From Kineothrix sp. MB12-C1 (GTDB lineage: Bacteria > Bacillota > Clostridia > Lachnospirales > Lachnospiraceae), in assembly GCF_030863805.1 (NCBI RefSeq), contig NZ_CP132957.1:806001-870000 (forward strand): DNA of 64,000 nt, read 5' to 3'. Under the pieces are notes generated by a model. It saw only the letters and a program-made list of their open reading frames with translations, was not told where the DNA came from and made no database searches. Each line of letters begins with the position of its first letter. Positions within the stretch are counted from its first letter, which is position 1. This document shows positions 21,717 through 27,007 of this stretch, piece by piece. A program made the translations under genes and the position numbers.

Positions 21717-21805
21717 ATTCCCCTCCTCCCGAATTACAATTATAAAACAAATAATTCATTTCTTCCCGACTTTTTATGCCGCAATTAGTAGACAGAAATT
21801 ATACC

Positions 21806-22351
21806 TTAGCCGCAAGCGGCCGCGGTATGTTTTTTGCACACTCGCTTTGCTCGGCGCAGTATAATATTGTTAAATATTTATATCTTAGCCGCAAGCGGCC
21901 GCGGTATGTTTTTTGCACACTCGCTTTGCTCGGCGCAGTATAATATTATTAAATATTTATATCTTAGCCGCAAGCGGCCGCGGTATGTTTTTTGCACACT
22001 CGCTTTGCTCGGCGCAGTATAATATTATTAAATATTTATATCTTAGCCGCAAGCGGCCGCGGTATGTTTTTTGCACACTCGCTTTGCTCGGCGCAGTATA
22101 ATATTATTAAATATTTATATCTTAGCCGCAAGCGGCCGCGGTATGTTTTTGCACACTCGCTTTGCTCGGCGCAGTATAATATTATTAAATATTTATATCT
22201 TAGCCGCAAGCGGCCGCGGTATGTTTTTTGCACACTCGCTTTGCTCGGCGCAGTATAATATTATTAAATATTTATATCTTAGCCGCAAGCGGCCGTGGTA
22301 TGTTTTTTGCACACTCGCTTTGCTCGGCGCAGTATAATATTGTTAAATATT
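21806..22351. repeat. Seven-copy 79-bp tandem repeat
   Basis: Units begin with TTAGCCGC at 21806, 21885, 21964, 22043, 22122, 22200 and 22279, so the period is 79 bp (78 for the fifth, one T shorter). Each unit holds a GC-rich stem GCCGC/GCGGC flanked by ATAYC/GGTAT, a T-run, the invariant GCACACTCGCTTTGCTCGGCGC and an AT-rich palindromic tail with TATAAT. Inner copies are essentially identical. The first and last share ATTGTT where inner units have ATTATT, and the last also has GGCCGTGG. It fills the gap between ribH and the AraC gene. Reading frames through it are by-products of the repeat. Confidence 0.95.
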
Positions 22352-22394: not shown

Positions 22395-22877
22395 TTATAA
22401 ATCCAATAAGTTCATATCACGGATTAAGTTTACCATCTCAATTGCGCCAACGGCACAGTCGAAGCCCTTGTTACCCGCCTTGGTTCCGGCCCGTTCGATC
22501 GCCTGCTCGATATTTTCAGTTGTCAGTATACCGAACATCACCGGGATACCACTGTCCAGGGATACATGCGCAATACCTTTGGATACCTCACTGCACACAT
22601 AGTCGTAGTGGGTGGTACTGCCGCGAATCACAGCACCGAGGCAGATGATTGCATCGTATTTCCCGCTTTTCGCCATTTTGGAAGCAATGAGTGGAATTTC
22701 AAATGCTCCGGGAACCCATGCGATCTCAATGTTATCCTCACCGACCTCATGACGTTTCAGCCCATCAAGAGCGCCGCCCAACAGCTTGCTTGTAATAAAT
22801 TCATTAAACCGTGCAGCAACAATACCGATTCGAATATTCTTATCCTTAGATACAAGTTTTCCTTCAAAAGTTTTCAT
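22395..22877 (-). CDS. ribH: 6,7-dimethyl-8-ribityllumazine synthase
   Basis: 160 residues with the lumazine synthase pattern: [13 protein letters not shown] (substrate pocket near the N-terminus), [25 protein letters not shown] and [23 protein letters not shown] near the C-terminus. It condenses 3,4-dihydroxybutanone phosphate with the pyrimidine intermediate. The ATG at 22877 is preferred over 22898 because AAGGAGAT lies 8 bases upstream. It is last in the ribD-ribE-ribBA-ribH operon and supplies the substrate for RibE. Confidence 0.96.
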
Positions 22878-22898
22878 TATTATAATCTCCTTTTTCAT

Positions 22899-24098
22899 TT
22901 AATAATGTAAGATATGGCCCATTTTTTTCTGCTTTGTTTTCAGGTAAAATAAATCGTGATCGGTAGCATCCATTTGAATCGGAACACGCTCGGTGATTTC
23001 CATGCCAAATCCGGAAAGCTGATACACCTTATCCGGGTTGTTGGTGAGCAGGCGCAATGTCCTGGCTCCAAGATCATGCAATATCTGTGCTCCGATAAAA
23101 TATTCCCTCATATCGCCCGGAAAGCCCAAGGCAAGATTCGCTTCCAAAGTATCCATACCCTGATCCTGTAACGCATAAGCCCGCAGTTTATTAATCAGAC
23201 CGATTCCCCGGCCCTCCTGGCGCATATAAAGCAAGATACCCCGACCTTCCTTTTCAATTTGCGCCATAGCTGCCGCAAACTGCTGACCGCAGTCACAGCG
23301 CATGGACCCGAACGCATCGCCTGTCAGACACTCGGAATGGACACGACATAACAGCTTTTCTCCATCCCCGATTTCTCCTTTCACTAACGCAACATGATGC
23401 TCTCCGTTGAGACTGTTGATATATCCGTAAGCCTTGAAGTCACCATATTTTGTGGGAAGAAGGGTATATGTTGCCTGCTCTACAAGCTTTTCATTTCGTT
23501 TGCGGTATTCCTGTAAGGCTTTGATCGTAACCATTCTAAGGCTCCATTTCTGCGCCAGCTCCATCAGTTCCGGCGTACGCATCATAGTTCCGTCCTCCCG
23601 CATAATTTCGCAGCAAAGGCCACATTCCTTTAATCCTGCCAGCCTCATCAAATCCACAGTGGCTTCGGTATGTCCGTTTCGCTCCAATACGCCGTTTTTC
23701 TTTGCAAGCAGCGGAAACATATGGCCGGGACGGCGAAAGTCCTCCGGCTTGCTTTCATCCGCTGCACATTTCAAAGCAGTCATGCTTCGCTCTGCCGCCG
23801 AAATACCAGTGGTGGTGTCCACACAGTCAACGGATACCGTAAACGCTGTTTTGTGGTTATCCTCATTGTCTCTCACCATTTGAGGAAATTGCAGTTTTTG
23901 GCAAAGCTTCTCGCTCATAGGCATACAAATCAGACCTTTCCCATGAACCGCCATAAAGTTTACGTTTTCGGTGGTGGCAAACTCCGCAGCGCAAATAAAG
24001 TCTCCTTCATTTTCTCTATCTTCATCGTCCGTAACTAGAATAATTTTTCCGAGGCGAAGGTCTTCTAACGCCTCTTCAATCGTGCTAAATCGAAACAT
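22899..24098 (-). CDS. ribBA: Bifunctional 3,4-dihydroxy-2-butanone-4-phosphate synthase / GTP cyclohydrolase II
   Basis: 399 residues. The N-terminal half is RibB ([19 protein letters not shown] near residue 23, [28 protein letters not shown] near 125). The C-terminal half is RibA ([22 protein letters not shown] with the zinc cysteines near 265, and [12 protein letters not shown]). It feeds both branches of riboflavin synthesis from ribulose-5-phosphate and GTP. Start has TTAGGAGGAATC upstream. The gap to ribE is only 11 bases. Confidence 0.96.
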
Positions 24099-24109
24099 TT
24101 TGATTCCTC

Positions 24110-24748
24110 CTAAAAGCCGTGTTTTGCAAGAAACCCGGCTGTAATATTGTTATTTTGCGACTCTTTTCCCATTAAGCGTTCCACATATTTTCCAATGCAG
24201 TCATTTTCCAGATTGACCGAATCTCCTACACGACGGCCTGATAAAGTTGTTAATGAAGCCGTATGCGGTATGACGGAAACGCTGAAGCTGTCCTTATATA
24301 CCCTCGCCACCGTCAGACTGATACCGTCAATAGCAATCGAGCCCTTTTCAATGATGTAACGAAGAATCGGTAAAGGCGTTTTGATTGTGTACCAAAGGGC
24401 GTTATCATCTCTGCGAATCTCTGAAATCGTACCGATGCCATCGATATGTCCGGAAACAATATGTCCGCCGAATCTGCCGTTTGCGGGCATAGCCCGCTCC
24501 AAATTAACGCAATTTCCTATCCGCAGATTTCCAAGGGAAGAACGGTTCAGGGTTTCATGCATTACATCCGCGGTAAAACCGTTGGGAGAAATGGAAGTAA
24601 CCGTGAGACAGACGCCGTTCACTGCAATACTATCGCCAAGTTGTATATCCTGCATGATCTTCCATGCCTGAACCGATAAAATGGCTGAACTCGTCTTCTT
24701 TTTAATATCCTGTATTTTACCGATCTCTTCTATAACCCCTGTAAACAA
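24110..24748 (-). CDS. ribE: Riboflavin synthase alpha chain
   Basis: 212 residues with two lumazine-binding repeats, each with the [13 protein letters not shown] / [12 protein letters not shown] signature, the N-terminal [10 protein letters not shown] and the paired VNLE...G(R/K)(H/Y)V motifs. It dismutates dimethylribityllumazine to riboflavin. The start is TTG at 24748, with GAGGTGAT just upstream. No ATG fits, and the alignment demands the FTGVIEEIG start. The first 19 bases overlap the end of ribD, so translation is coupled. Confidence 0.95.
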
Positions 24749-25830
24749 TGAATCACCTCGCTTTCTAATAAAATGTCTTCACCTACCTGTGTAATAAGCG
24801 GCTCGCTTAGGAGAAAAGCTCCCTCAGGGTAATCAACACCGAACCCCTCTACCGGAGTCTTTCCGCTGCCGCCGAACAGCTTTGGCGCAATGTATGCCTG
24901 CACCTTATTTACTATGCCGCTTTCCATGGCAGACCAATTCAATGTGCCGCCGCCCTCCAGTAAAAGGCTGTCAATCTGCTTTTCACCCAACCTTTGCATC
25001 AAGATATTTAAGTCAATATGATTATTCTTTTGAGGAAGTACCATAATCTCACAACCTGCATCCAAATACGGACGATGTCTGTTAGTATCTGTTACCGCCG
25101 TAGCGATGATGGTAAGGGCCGTCTCGGTTGTGGTGACAAGTTTTGCTTGCAGGGGGGTTCTTAATCCGGTATCACAGATAATACGCAGAGGATTCCTGCT
25201 GTTCTCAAGCCGACAGGTCAGTGACGGATCGTCTGTTAGAACCGTACCTACGCCGACCATAATGGCAGAGTAACGGTGCCGGTCCTCATGAACGCGCCGA
25301 CGTGCCGCCGATCCGGTAATCCATTGGGATCTTCCGGTATGGGTTGCAATCTTTCCGTCCATGGTCATAGCATATTTCATAACTACATAAGGTGTTTTAT
25401 TTTGAATGTAATGGAAAAAGCTGCCGTTGAGTTTGTCGCATTCATCCTTTAAAACATTCTCTGCCACCTCAATACCGTGAGAACGCAAAATCGCAAGACC
25501 TTTCCCGGCAGCCAGCGGATTAGGGTCAGAAGAACCGAATACCACACGGCTAATGCCGCTTTTAATGATTGCATCGGTACAAGGAGGGGTTCTCCCATAA
25601 TGACAGCAGGGTTCCAGCGTTACATACAGGGTTGCACCGGCTACCGATGTCTGACAGTTTGCCAATGCGTCACGTTCTGCGTGGAGCCCTCCGTATTTTC
25701 TATGGCAGCCCTGTCCTATTATCTTGCCGTCCTTCACAATCACAGCGCCAACCATGGGGTTAGGATTCACCCATCCACATCCCTTTCTTGCAAGTTGAAT
25801 CGCAAGACGCATATATTCCATTTCCTCCAT
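24730..25830 (-). CDS. ribD: Bifunctional diaminohydroxyphosphoribosylaminopyrimidine deaminase / 5-amino-6-ribosylamino-uracil reductase
   Basis: 366 residues. The N-terminal deaminase carries the zinc motif GLHAERDAL and PCCHYGRTPPCTDAI (about residues 49-90). The C-terminal reductase has VVMKYAMTMDGKIAT and LLLEGGGTLNWSAMESG. It is the first gene of the riboflavin operon, with an AAGGAGGTG box. Its leader holds two hairpins, an IS200-type element, and further upstream the FMN riboswitch and promoter. Confidence 0.96.
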   Translation of the reverse strand: MEEMEYMRLAIQLARKGCGWVNPNPMVGAVIVKDGKIIGQGCHRKYGGLHAERDALANCQTSVAGATLYVTLEPCCHYGRTPPCTDAIIKSGISRVVFGSSDPNPLAAGKGLAILRSHGIEVAENVLKDECDKLNGSFFHYIQNKTPYVVMKYAMTMDGKIATHTGRSQWITGSAARRRVHEDRHRYSAIMVGVGTVLTDDPSLTCRLENSRNPLRIICDTGLRTPLQAKLVTTTETALTIIATAVTDTNRHRPYLDAGCEIMVLPQKNNHIDLNILMQRLGEKQIDSLLLEGGGTLNWSAMESGIVNKVQAYIAPKLFGGSGKTPVEGFGVDYPEGAFLLSEPLITQVGEDILLESEVIHCLQGL

Positions 25831-25890
25831 ATAACAACACCTCCTTAAAATAAAATTTATTAGCGAACAAAAGTGTGCTTCCTATAGAAT

Positions 25891-25922
25891 AAAAAAGCCC
25901 CGAACAAAATGCTCAGGGCAGG
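25891..25922 (-). terminator. Terminator in the ribD leader, complementary to the FMN riboswitch P1 strand
   Basis: On the minus strand GCCCTGAGC (25911-25919) pairs with GTTCGGGGC (25897-25905) and is followed by six T residues. The extended 5' arm CCTGCCCTGA (25913-25922) can pair over 10 positions (one G.U) with the 5' strand of the distant FMN aptamer (TCGGGGCAGG). It therefore looks like the riboswitch's own terminator/antiterminator platform. Confidence 0.75.
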
Positions 25923-25969
25923 AGAAATAAACGGCGGTTTTACCGTACACAAACCAGAAGTTATCTCGC

Positions 25970-26007
25970 AAAAATGCCTTGAACATATAATTGTTCAAGG
26001 CATTTTT
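25970..26007. terminator. Symmetrical 16-bp hairpin in the ribD leader
   Basis: AAAAATGCCTTGAACA (25970-25985) is perfectly complementary to 25992-26007 with a six-base loop. The A/T-tailed ends make it terminator-shaped on either strand. It lies between the IS200-type element and the ribD terminator. Confidence 0.7.
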
Positions 26008-26038
26008 ATAAAGCGAACCGCAATTACACTGCATAGAT

Positions 26039-26763
26039 ATTAAAATCAGAACCACCGGCTTAGCCGGTGGTTTGCTCAAGCCCTATAAGGGCGTATTACC
26101 GGCTCTGAGTCTAAAGACTCTTCGATAAGGCTCGCCAGCCGCAACATCATTTGTCTGCTGAGCCCTTATGGGCTCTTTTTACTTGCTTTGCTTTACTGGC
26201 TCACCCGTAAACGGGTCTATATACTCTTTTAATGTCATTTGATCATATTCCAAATCTTCTTTTAACTGGTTCTGGATATACTCTTTGATCTTCTTTGCAT
26301 TTTTTCCTACCGTATCTACATAATATCCTCTACACCAGAAGTGGCGGTTCCCAAATTTATATTTCAGATTTGCATGTCTTTCAAATATCATCAACGTGCT
26401 CTTTCCTTTCAGGTATCCGATAAAGCTTGCCACTGACATACTCGGTGGTATCTCCACCAGCATGTGCACATGATCCGGACAGATTTCTGCTTCTACTATT
26501 TTTACCCCTTTTCTCTTGCATAGCGTACTTAATATATTCGCTACGTCCTGTTTTAACTGCCCATATACTATTTTTCTCCGGAACTTCGGCGCAAATACTA
26601 TATGATACTTACAATTCCATTTCGTATGTGATAAACTATTTACATCCATTTTGGATACCTCCTTTGTTTTGGTGCGGTTGGCGAACCTGTACCTATTATA
26701 ACATTGGAGGTTTTTTACTGTAAGCTAAAGCAGTTCTTATCACACCTGCATAGCAGGTGGTTT
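26039..26763 (-). mobile_element. IS200/IS605-type element (tnpA only)
   Basis: About 725 bp, with a single HUH transposase and no terminal inverted repeats. Subterminal hairpins are seen instead: left end CACCTGC/GCAGGTG (26743-26759) and right end AACCACCGGCT/AGCCGGTGGTT (26050-26072). The heptamer TTTTAAT (minus strand) occurs at both junctions (26764-26770 outside the left end, 26039-26045 at the right end), which suggests the cleavage sites. Exact ends are uncertain by a few bases. It sits between the FMN riboswitch and ribD, in the same orientation. Confidence 0.85.
26179..26649 (-). CDS. tnpA: IS200/IS605-family transposase TnpA
   Basis: 156 residues of the Y1 HUH single-strand transposase family. 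It has the HUH motif in CPDHVHMLVEIPP (about residue 60), the catalytic Tyr in IKEYIQNQLKED (about 127) and the N-terminal KYHIVFAPKFRRK. It has normal length and looks intact. The element carries no TnpB accessory gene. A GGAGG box precedes the ATG. It moves the element by single-strand excision and insertion. Confidence 0.95.
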   Translation of the reverse strand: MDVNSLSHTKWNCKYHIVFAPKFRRKIVYGQLKQDVANILSTLCKRKGVKIVEAEICPDHVHMLVEIPPSMSVASFIGYLKGKSTLMIFERHANLKYKFGNRHFWCRGYYVDTVGKNAKKIKEYIQNQLKEDLEYDQMTLKEYIDPFTGEPVKQSK

Positions 26764-26784
26764 ATTAAAAGACTGCTATACAAT

Positions 26785-26816
26785 AAAAGCTCTGAAATGG
26801 CAATTCATTTCAGAGC
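26785..26816 (-). terminator. Terminator directly downstream of the FMN aptamer
   Basis: Minus-strand stem GCTCTGAAATG (26806-26816) / CATTTCAGAGC (26789-26799) followed by TTTT. Its 5' arm GCTCTGAA can also pair with TTCGGGGC of the aptamer 5' strand (two G.U pairs), so it may be the riboswitch's proximal expression platform. Confidence 0.8.
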
Positions 26817-26856
26817 ATAAATTCAAATACCCACGCAAAAACGCGAATCTTTCTTT

Positions 26857-26961
26857 ATCTTCTACTATCAGACTTTACTGTCGGCTTCGGAATTTAACCG
26901 AATCAACCTTGCGGTTCGTGGGCTATACCACCGGTCGGGAATTTCACCCTGCCCCGAAGAT
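26857..26961 (-). promoter_or_regulatory. FMN riboswitch (RFN element)
   Basis: The minus strand carries the RFN consensus in order. P1 is ATCTTC/GAAGAT (26956-26961 with 26857-26862), then GGGGCAGGGTGAAATTCCC, GACCGGTGGTATAGCCCACGA, GGTTGATTCGGTTAAATTCC and GAAGCCGACAGTAAAGTC. It binds FMN and terminates transcription of riboflavin genes. The 3' joining segment reads CTGATAGTAGAAG where the consensus has CTGGATGRRAGAAG: one base short, with a G changed. Ligand binding may therefore be altered. A consensus promoter precedes it and a terminator follows, but ribD lies about 1 kb away beyond an IS200-type insertion. Confidence 0.93.
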
Positions 26962-26978
26962 CTTATTCAATTGGTATT

Positions 26979-27007
26979 GTTATATCACAGATTATTAAAC
27001 CTGTCAA
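26979..27007 (-). promoter_or_regulatory. Promoter of the FMN riboswitch / rib operon
   Basis: Minus strand TTGACA (27002-27007), exactly 17 bases, TATAAC (26979-26984). Transcription would begin about 10 bases before the aptamer. Confidence 0.85.

Follow-up and report, generated by a model that had tools for sequence, protein, structure and literature searches.

An IS200-type element behind the first terminator of an FMN riboswitch, and the placement of its relatives behind terminator-like hairpins

Introduction

In a stretch of 64,000 nucleotides from Kineothrix sp. MB12-C1 (contig NZ_CP132957.1, positions 806,001 to 870,000; hereafter the window), an insertion element of the IS200 type separates the aptamer of an FMN riboswitch from the riboflavin biosynthesis operon that follows it. 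This arrangement raises two questions, namely why the element lies at this position and what its presence means for control of the operon by FMN. Elements of the IS608/ISDra2 type move as single strands, have hairpin ends and cut 3' of a short, guide-paired target, as described in excerpts of PMC5934647 and PMC2806898; in IS608, TnpA binds the hairpins, and a guide next to the left hairpin pairs with the target (excerpt of PMC5934647). Here we define the element and its leader, compare the insertion sites of its relatives with matched control sites, and weigh explanations for its position.

Results

Layout of the locus and of the inserted element

Read along the minus strand, the locus comprises a promoter-like site, the FMN aptamer, a proximal terminator (T1), the IS200-type element, two further terminators (T2 and T3) and the genes ribD-ribE-ribBA-ribH (Table 1). 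The promoter proposed in an earlier, sequence-only reading of this locus is present as described, with the hexamers TTGACA and TATAAC spaced by 17 nt, a combination skipped by our promoter scan, which demands a final T in the second hexamer. The full RFN aptamer reported in that reading is likewise supported by an Rfam covariance search (107.1 bits versus a cut-off of 66.2, E = 6.4e-24), FMN being the only family above its cut-off in the window. A second FMN aptamer is encoded elsewhere in the same genome (G000:C1:1169865-1170009, L034; 110.3 bits). A terminator scan recovered both terminators of the sequence-only reading, T1 and T3, and a hairpin scan added T2, which had been overlooked. Terminator-like sites between 20000 and 28500 number 17 versus a shuffle mean of 6.6, with several of the 17 belonging to one repeated unit. 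Just 3' of ribH, a 79-bp unit is present seven times with 98% matches (window 21799-22351), each unit containing a GC-rich hairpin followed by T's. The leader resembles the usual FMN riboswitch upstream of ribDEBAH (RF00050) in its full aptamer, its rib operon and the potential pairing of a terminator 5' arm with P1, but differs in that its terminators are three in tandem, the first being separated from the second by an element.

Table 1. Features of the riboflavin leader, operon and inserted element in the window.
Feature	Coordinates	Strand	Basis
Promoter-like site of rib leader, TTGACA-17-TATAAC	26979..27007	-	read directly from sequence
FMN riboswitch aptamer	26853..26965	-	Rfam RF00050, 107.1 bits
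T1, proximal terminator, landing site of element	26789..26816	-	terminator scan; homologues in L030, L016, L041, L039
IS200-type element, 738 bp, tnpA only, in T-rich tract of T1	26044..26781	-	second copy L002 and junctions
Left-end hairpin of element, CCACCTGCTATGCAGGTG	26743..26760	-	sequence and hairpin scan
Promoter-like site upstream of tnpA, CTTACA-18-TATAAT	26695..26724	-	promoter scan
tnpA, Y1 transposase, 156 aa	26179..26649	-	PF01797, E 8.3e-41
Right-end hairpin of element	26050..26072	-	hairpin scan
T2, terminator hairpin	25975..26002	-	hairpin scan; similar in L041 and L039
T3, distal terminator	25897..25919	-	terminator scan; similar in L030 and L016
ribD	24730..25830	-	PF01872, PF00383
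Riboflavin synthase (ribE)	24110..24748	-	PF00677, two stretches
ribBA	22899..24098	-	PF00926, PF00925
ribH, lumazine synthase	22395..22898	-	PF00885

An IS200-type element between the aptamer and ribD had been proposed from the sequence and is confirmed by its PF01797 transposase, whereas the bounds assigned to it (26039-26763) need correction: identity with a second copy (L002) and the junctions place the ends as in Table 1, to within one or two T, and add 18 bases missed at the left end. In the genome (G000; a single 3.94-Mb contig) there are four copies of the transposase gene, namely the window copy, the identical L002 and two at 77% (L003 and L004). The window copy and L002 have 742 identical bases in common (26785-26044). 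The element belongs to the IS200 group in encoding a Y1 (HUH) transposase, in carrying tnpA as its one long tnpA-strand frame with no tnpB, and in having subterminal hairpins but no terminal inverted repeats. The promoter-like site upstream of tnpA matches at 10 of 12 positions and has TG ahead of its second hexamer. AATAAA stands before the left hairpin and AAAA before that of the E. coli IS200; both stretches are A-rich and therefore predicted to be capable of pairing with a T tract. At the other end, the last G of the right-end hairpin lies ~8 nt from the right end of the element, which is its own cleavage point. TnpA is 59-60% identical to the transposases of IS200C of E. coli and IS200F of Salmonella (IS200/IS605 family), which share with the window element a tnpA-only content, subterminal hairpins, similar junctions and a position behind a hairpin and T tract, but differ in left-end sequence; the window element also differs in its Clostridia host. 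IS608 and ISDra2, of the IS605 group, would share with it the single-strand and hairpin-end mechanism of the family and differ in their targets, TTAC and TTGAT, for which the excerpts of PMC5934647 and PMC2806898 describe no need of a terminator.

Relatives of the element mostly lie behind hairpins and T tracts

Insertion sites were compared at 95 tnpA places, comprising the window, 14 from a genus search (15 in 6 genomes with the window included) and the best 80 of 558 from a contig search. The left end was located in 83 of these (all but L090, L092, L104, L130, L136, L140, L142, L055, L061, L059, L062 and L064), and two more were dropped for short flanks, leaving 81 scored. Each site was scored for a single hairpin whose end falls 3-14 nt ahead of the junction that follows TTG, at thresholds of -8 and -12 kcal/mol. 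Hairpins of -12 kcal/mol or better precede the junction in 73/81 sites and of -8 in 75/81 (median -19.5). Flanks shuffled without disturbing the T tract (n = 405) reached these thresholds far less often (23.5% at -8, 6.7% at -12), as did TTG sites preceded by 8 bases of which 4 or more are T, drawn from element-free parts of these loci (n = 2246; 14.2% at -8, 4.5% at -12), and the noncoding sites of this T-rich kind (n = 233; 16.7% at -8, 9.0% at -12). The difference between 73/81 insertions and 21/233 noncoding control sites is significant (Fisher test, p about 2e-42). We note that TT at positions -1 and -2 of the junction is imposed by the search pattern; the tract before the junction is also T-rich at positions -4 to -7. 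Ten of the 81 insertions have fewer than 4 T in the preceding 8 bases, and six of these ten reach -8. The possibility that the hairpins are part of the element was rejected, as no pair among the 81 flanks reaches 80% similarity.

Between the final non-T base of the stem and the junction after TTG there were 6-11 nt in 67/75 cases, with a mode of 8 (26/75). An empty site in E. coli, described below, assigns the G to the element, and the spacing within the target is therefore one nt less. The longest open reading frame within 400 nt upstream (median 70 nt) is co-directed with the element in 61/81 loci and opposed in 6; 14 have none. A hairpin of -8 is absent from 6/81 sites (L088, L099, L114, L131, L145 and L002), including the other copy of the window element, L002, where the best hairpin is only -5.9. 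Among loci outside the scored set that were judged by eye, hairpins are present at L055 and L061 and likewise at L178, L181 and L183 (Enterococcus, an L. reuteri phage and Vescimonas); L184 (Azotobacter, 44%) lacks one, L179 is ambiguous, and L059, L062 and L064, which belong to a sister group, are without hairpins. An Rfam scan of 80 loci placed no riboswitch directly upstream of an element other than that of the window copy; the one other riboswitch found, in L108, was a SAM riboswitch some 1.3 kb away from the left end. In five loci a stable RNA gene lies 38-112 nt ahead of the element (rnpB in L080, drum in L094 and tRNA in L074, L077 and L141).

The sister IS200 group occurs in the same host family and has left hairpins of the CCCCCAGC type. 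By a loose hairpin test, 42/48 members of the window-type group were positive versus 2/11 of the sister group (12 tried, 11 located; L148 had no located hairpin). One of the two positives, L156, had a misplaced reference point and is negative by eye, giving 1/11, the count used for this group in a Fisher test. The sister group forms one clade (98/99) in a tree of 32 hand-picked proteins, from which L149 and L062 were left out; the terminator-associated sequences were not resolved as a single clade in this tree.

Classical IS200 elements show the same placement

The E. coli and Salmonella sample comprised 18 scored loci representing 16 distinct sites, with the 12 E. coli copies taken from the 60 listed among 3399 matching records; H101 and H102 are one E. 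coli site, for which L185 alone was scored. Hairpins of -8 were found at 14/16 distinct sites and of -11.9 at 13/16, compared with 68/258 and 30/258 T-rich control positions from the same loci, which overlap within T runs. The weak hairpins are those of L176 (-7.0) and L177 (-7.9), and the left flank of L177 may be a later exchange because its right flank equals that of the kdsA site L185. These IS200 copies lie behind kdsA, pqqU, fdnI, mdh, pheP, tkt, carB, htpX and prophage or plasmid genes. At kdsA, the empty site of another E. coli strain (L189 versus L185) lacks the element yet carries both hairpin and T tract. For the E. coli relative, and for it only, this comparison indicates that the G belongs to the element and that there is no target duplication beyond ambiguous T. 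Six distinct sites are occupied by copies that are 99.7% identical to the query (L190-L195), so that these insertions are recent, and the pattern is present in them, with hairpins of -12.1 or better at 6/6. One of these, L190 (E. coli NZ_CP023820.1), is an IS200C copy in the gap between lacZ and lacY, antisense to the operon and behind a hairpin followed by TTATT, a position that recognition of structure fits better than harmlessness.

Probable target choice by the transposase

Compared with matched sites, copies of the window group and of the E. coli and Salmonella IS200 are thus strongly enriched behind a hairpin and T tract. For the rib leader, we consider it probable that the landing is explained by TnpA selecting an intrinsic terminator, recognised in single-stranded DNA as a hairpin with a T-rich tract behind it, and joining the element just 3' of the tract. 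The terminator position would then reflect target choice by TnpA beyond mere survival. How such a choice might be made is more tentative, and we give somewhat less than an even chance to the following scheme, in which the IS200 group picks targets by DNA shape. The host terminator hairpin would be mistaken for the right-end hairpin of the element, standing in for it ahead of a cleavage site, as the spacing suggests, and the T tract would be cut at the same distance. The A-rich stretch beside the left-end hairpin would pair with the T's, much as the IS608 guide does.

The strongest competing explanation invokes process rather than shape: transcription or replication would expose single strands at terminators, through paused polymerase, an R-loop or the lagging strand, with TnpA not reading the hairpin at all. 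Use of single-stranded targets and a preference for the lagging-strand template are known for the family (excerpt of PMC5371812), and both the co-direction with the upstream gene in 61/81 loci and the presence of the T tracts on the RNA-like strand would be expected. However, the narrow distance between stem and junction in 67/75 cases and the antisense orientation of the lacZ-lacY copy argue against it, and we regard this explanation as rather unlikely. A second possibility is survivorship, whereby the element would insert at random among T-rich tetra- or pentanucleotides and copies would last only behind terminators, where they do no harm. The generality of T-rich junctions, the position of most copies just 3' of a gene and the short target sequence that suffices for IS605-family elements (excerpt of PMC5934647) are all compatible with such filtering. 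It is made improbable by the scarcity of strong hairpins at T-matched noncoding sites (9.0%), by the sister group, which comes from the same host family, not being behind terminators, by the near-identical E. coli copies behind hairpins at all six distinct sites and by the one copy inside the lac operon. As read from surviving genomic copies, the spacing, co-direction and recent E. coli insertions appear to favour targeting over survivorship.

The first terminator is native to the riboswitch leader

Uninterrupted leaders were sought and found in related genomes. We compared 13 ribD leaders of relatives and scored terminators by hairpin scan in 10 (L009 left out). A T1 homologue followed by a second terminator is present in 4/10 (L030, L016, L041 and L039), with the homologue ending 179, 190, 181 and 182 nt, respectively, from the leader start, compared with 180 nt for T1 in the window when the flanks of the element are joined. 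The second terminator is T3-like in L030 and L016 and T2-like in L041 and L039. The other scored leaders have a single terminator, except L033, in which a weak hairpin lies ahead of a strong one. In the four T1-bearing leaders the element is absent and the distal terminator is close by, and none of the relatives combines the spacing of the window with absence of an element. The presence of T1 at the same place in four uninterrupted leaders indicates that it is native, and it continues to follow the aptamer directly. The aptamer was therefore not severed from its expression platform, the element sitting between T1 and T2, and the terminator chosen by TnpA would here have happened to be the native platform of an FMN riboswitch. 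T1 was also considered as a part of the element and rejected, being outside the 742 bases common to L002 and present in relatives without the element.

The 5' arms of all three terminators are predicted to pair with the 5' strand of P1, at -12.6 kcal/mol for T1, -12.5 for T2 and -24.6 for T3. In the four relatives, the corresponding predictions are -13.3, -13.5, -13.0 and -12.1 kcal/mol for the first terminator and -17.8, -16.3, -19.4 and -16.4 for the second, consistent with an expression platform that competes with P1 in the window and relatives alike. The pairing between the distal arm and P1 noted in the sequence-only reading is thus real but not specific. That reading took the distal terminator as the aptamer's own platform, now ~1 kb away, with the proximal one a possible substitute. 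A distal platform with a secondary or element-borne proximal terminator is, despite the stronger pairing of T3 with P1, very improbable given the T1 homologues in four uninterrupted leaders, the position of T1 outside the sequence shared with the second copy and the differing sequences of the hairpins before other copies.

These tandem-terminator FMN leaders (window 26816-25897, L030, L016, L041 and L039) have two or three terminators, all of whose arms could pair with the P1 5' strand. From folding predictions, one conceivable scheme is that this strand is passed from arm to arm as polymerase advances, the order of arms not being strict in the window because the T2 pairing is not stronger than that of T1. 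One relative (G009) has 26-nt inverted repeats 239 nt apart between T2 and ribD (L041:1265-1555), which may mark a further mobile sequence within this leader.

Predicted consequences for rib expression

With T1 and the aptamer untouched, FMN-dependent termination at T1 has probably been kept. In the absence of FMN, the P1 5' strand would release RNA polymerase from T1 as before, and in its presence T1 would stop the polymerase. Transcripts that read through T1 or start within the element have the right-end hairpin, T2 and T3 between them and ribD. The element has moved T2 and T3 738 bp further from the aptamer, where they would be less easily relieved, and lowered rib expression is therefore probably the likelier outcome, as judged from folding energies. 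T2 and T3 would also damp transcripts starting inside the element.

Discussion

Group IIC introns are mobile elements that go to intrinsic terminators. The window element resembles them in lying at a terminator but differs in machinery, theirs being a reverse transcriptase with a ribozyme. Insertion sequences in REP palindromes are similar in occupying palindromes outside genes but have unrelated transposases, and IS200 of Salmonella LT2 lies in REP in 1/25 cases (excerpt of PMC1525189). Terminators 5' of transposases have been described and were read as parts of the elements (excerpt of PMC2965389). In the literature searched, in which subscription papers are thinly represented, we found no statement that IS200 targets terminators; a prior report is possible, and we do not claim the habit as new.

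IS200 elements seldom show up as mutations. They are nevertheless widespread, and in Enterobacteriaceae their transposition frequency is very low (excerpt of PMC4963395). A built-in preference for terminators would help to explain how IS200 can be widespread yet rarely mutagenic and, if true, choice guided by shape would land each new copy somewhere mostly harmless and shielded from incoming transcription. Such a preference would amount to structure-guided target choice by a transposase that is among the smallest. It would also mean that the terminators of riboswitches and attenuators can be struck, with the FMN leader of Kineothrix a rare collateral target if the shape reading is true. For the host, the rib locus amounts to an experiment of nature in which a riboswitch has tandem terminators.
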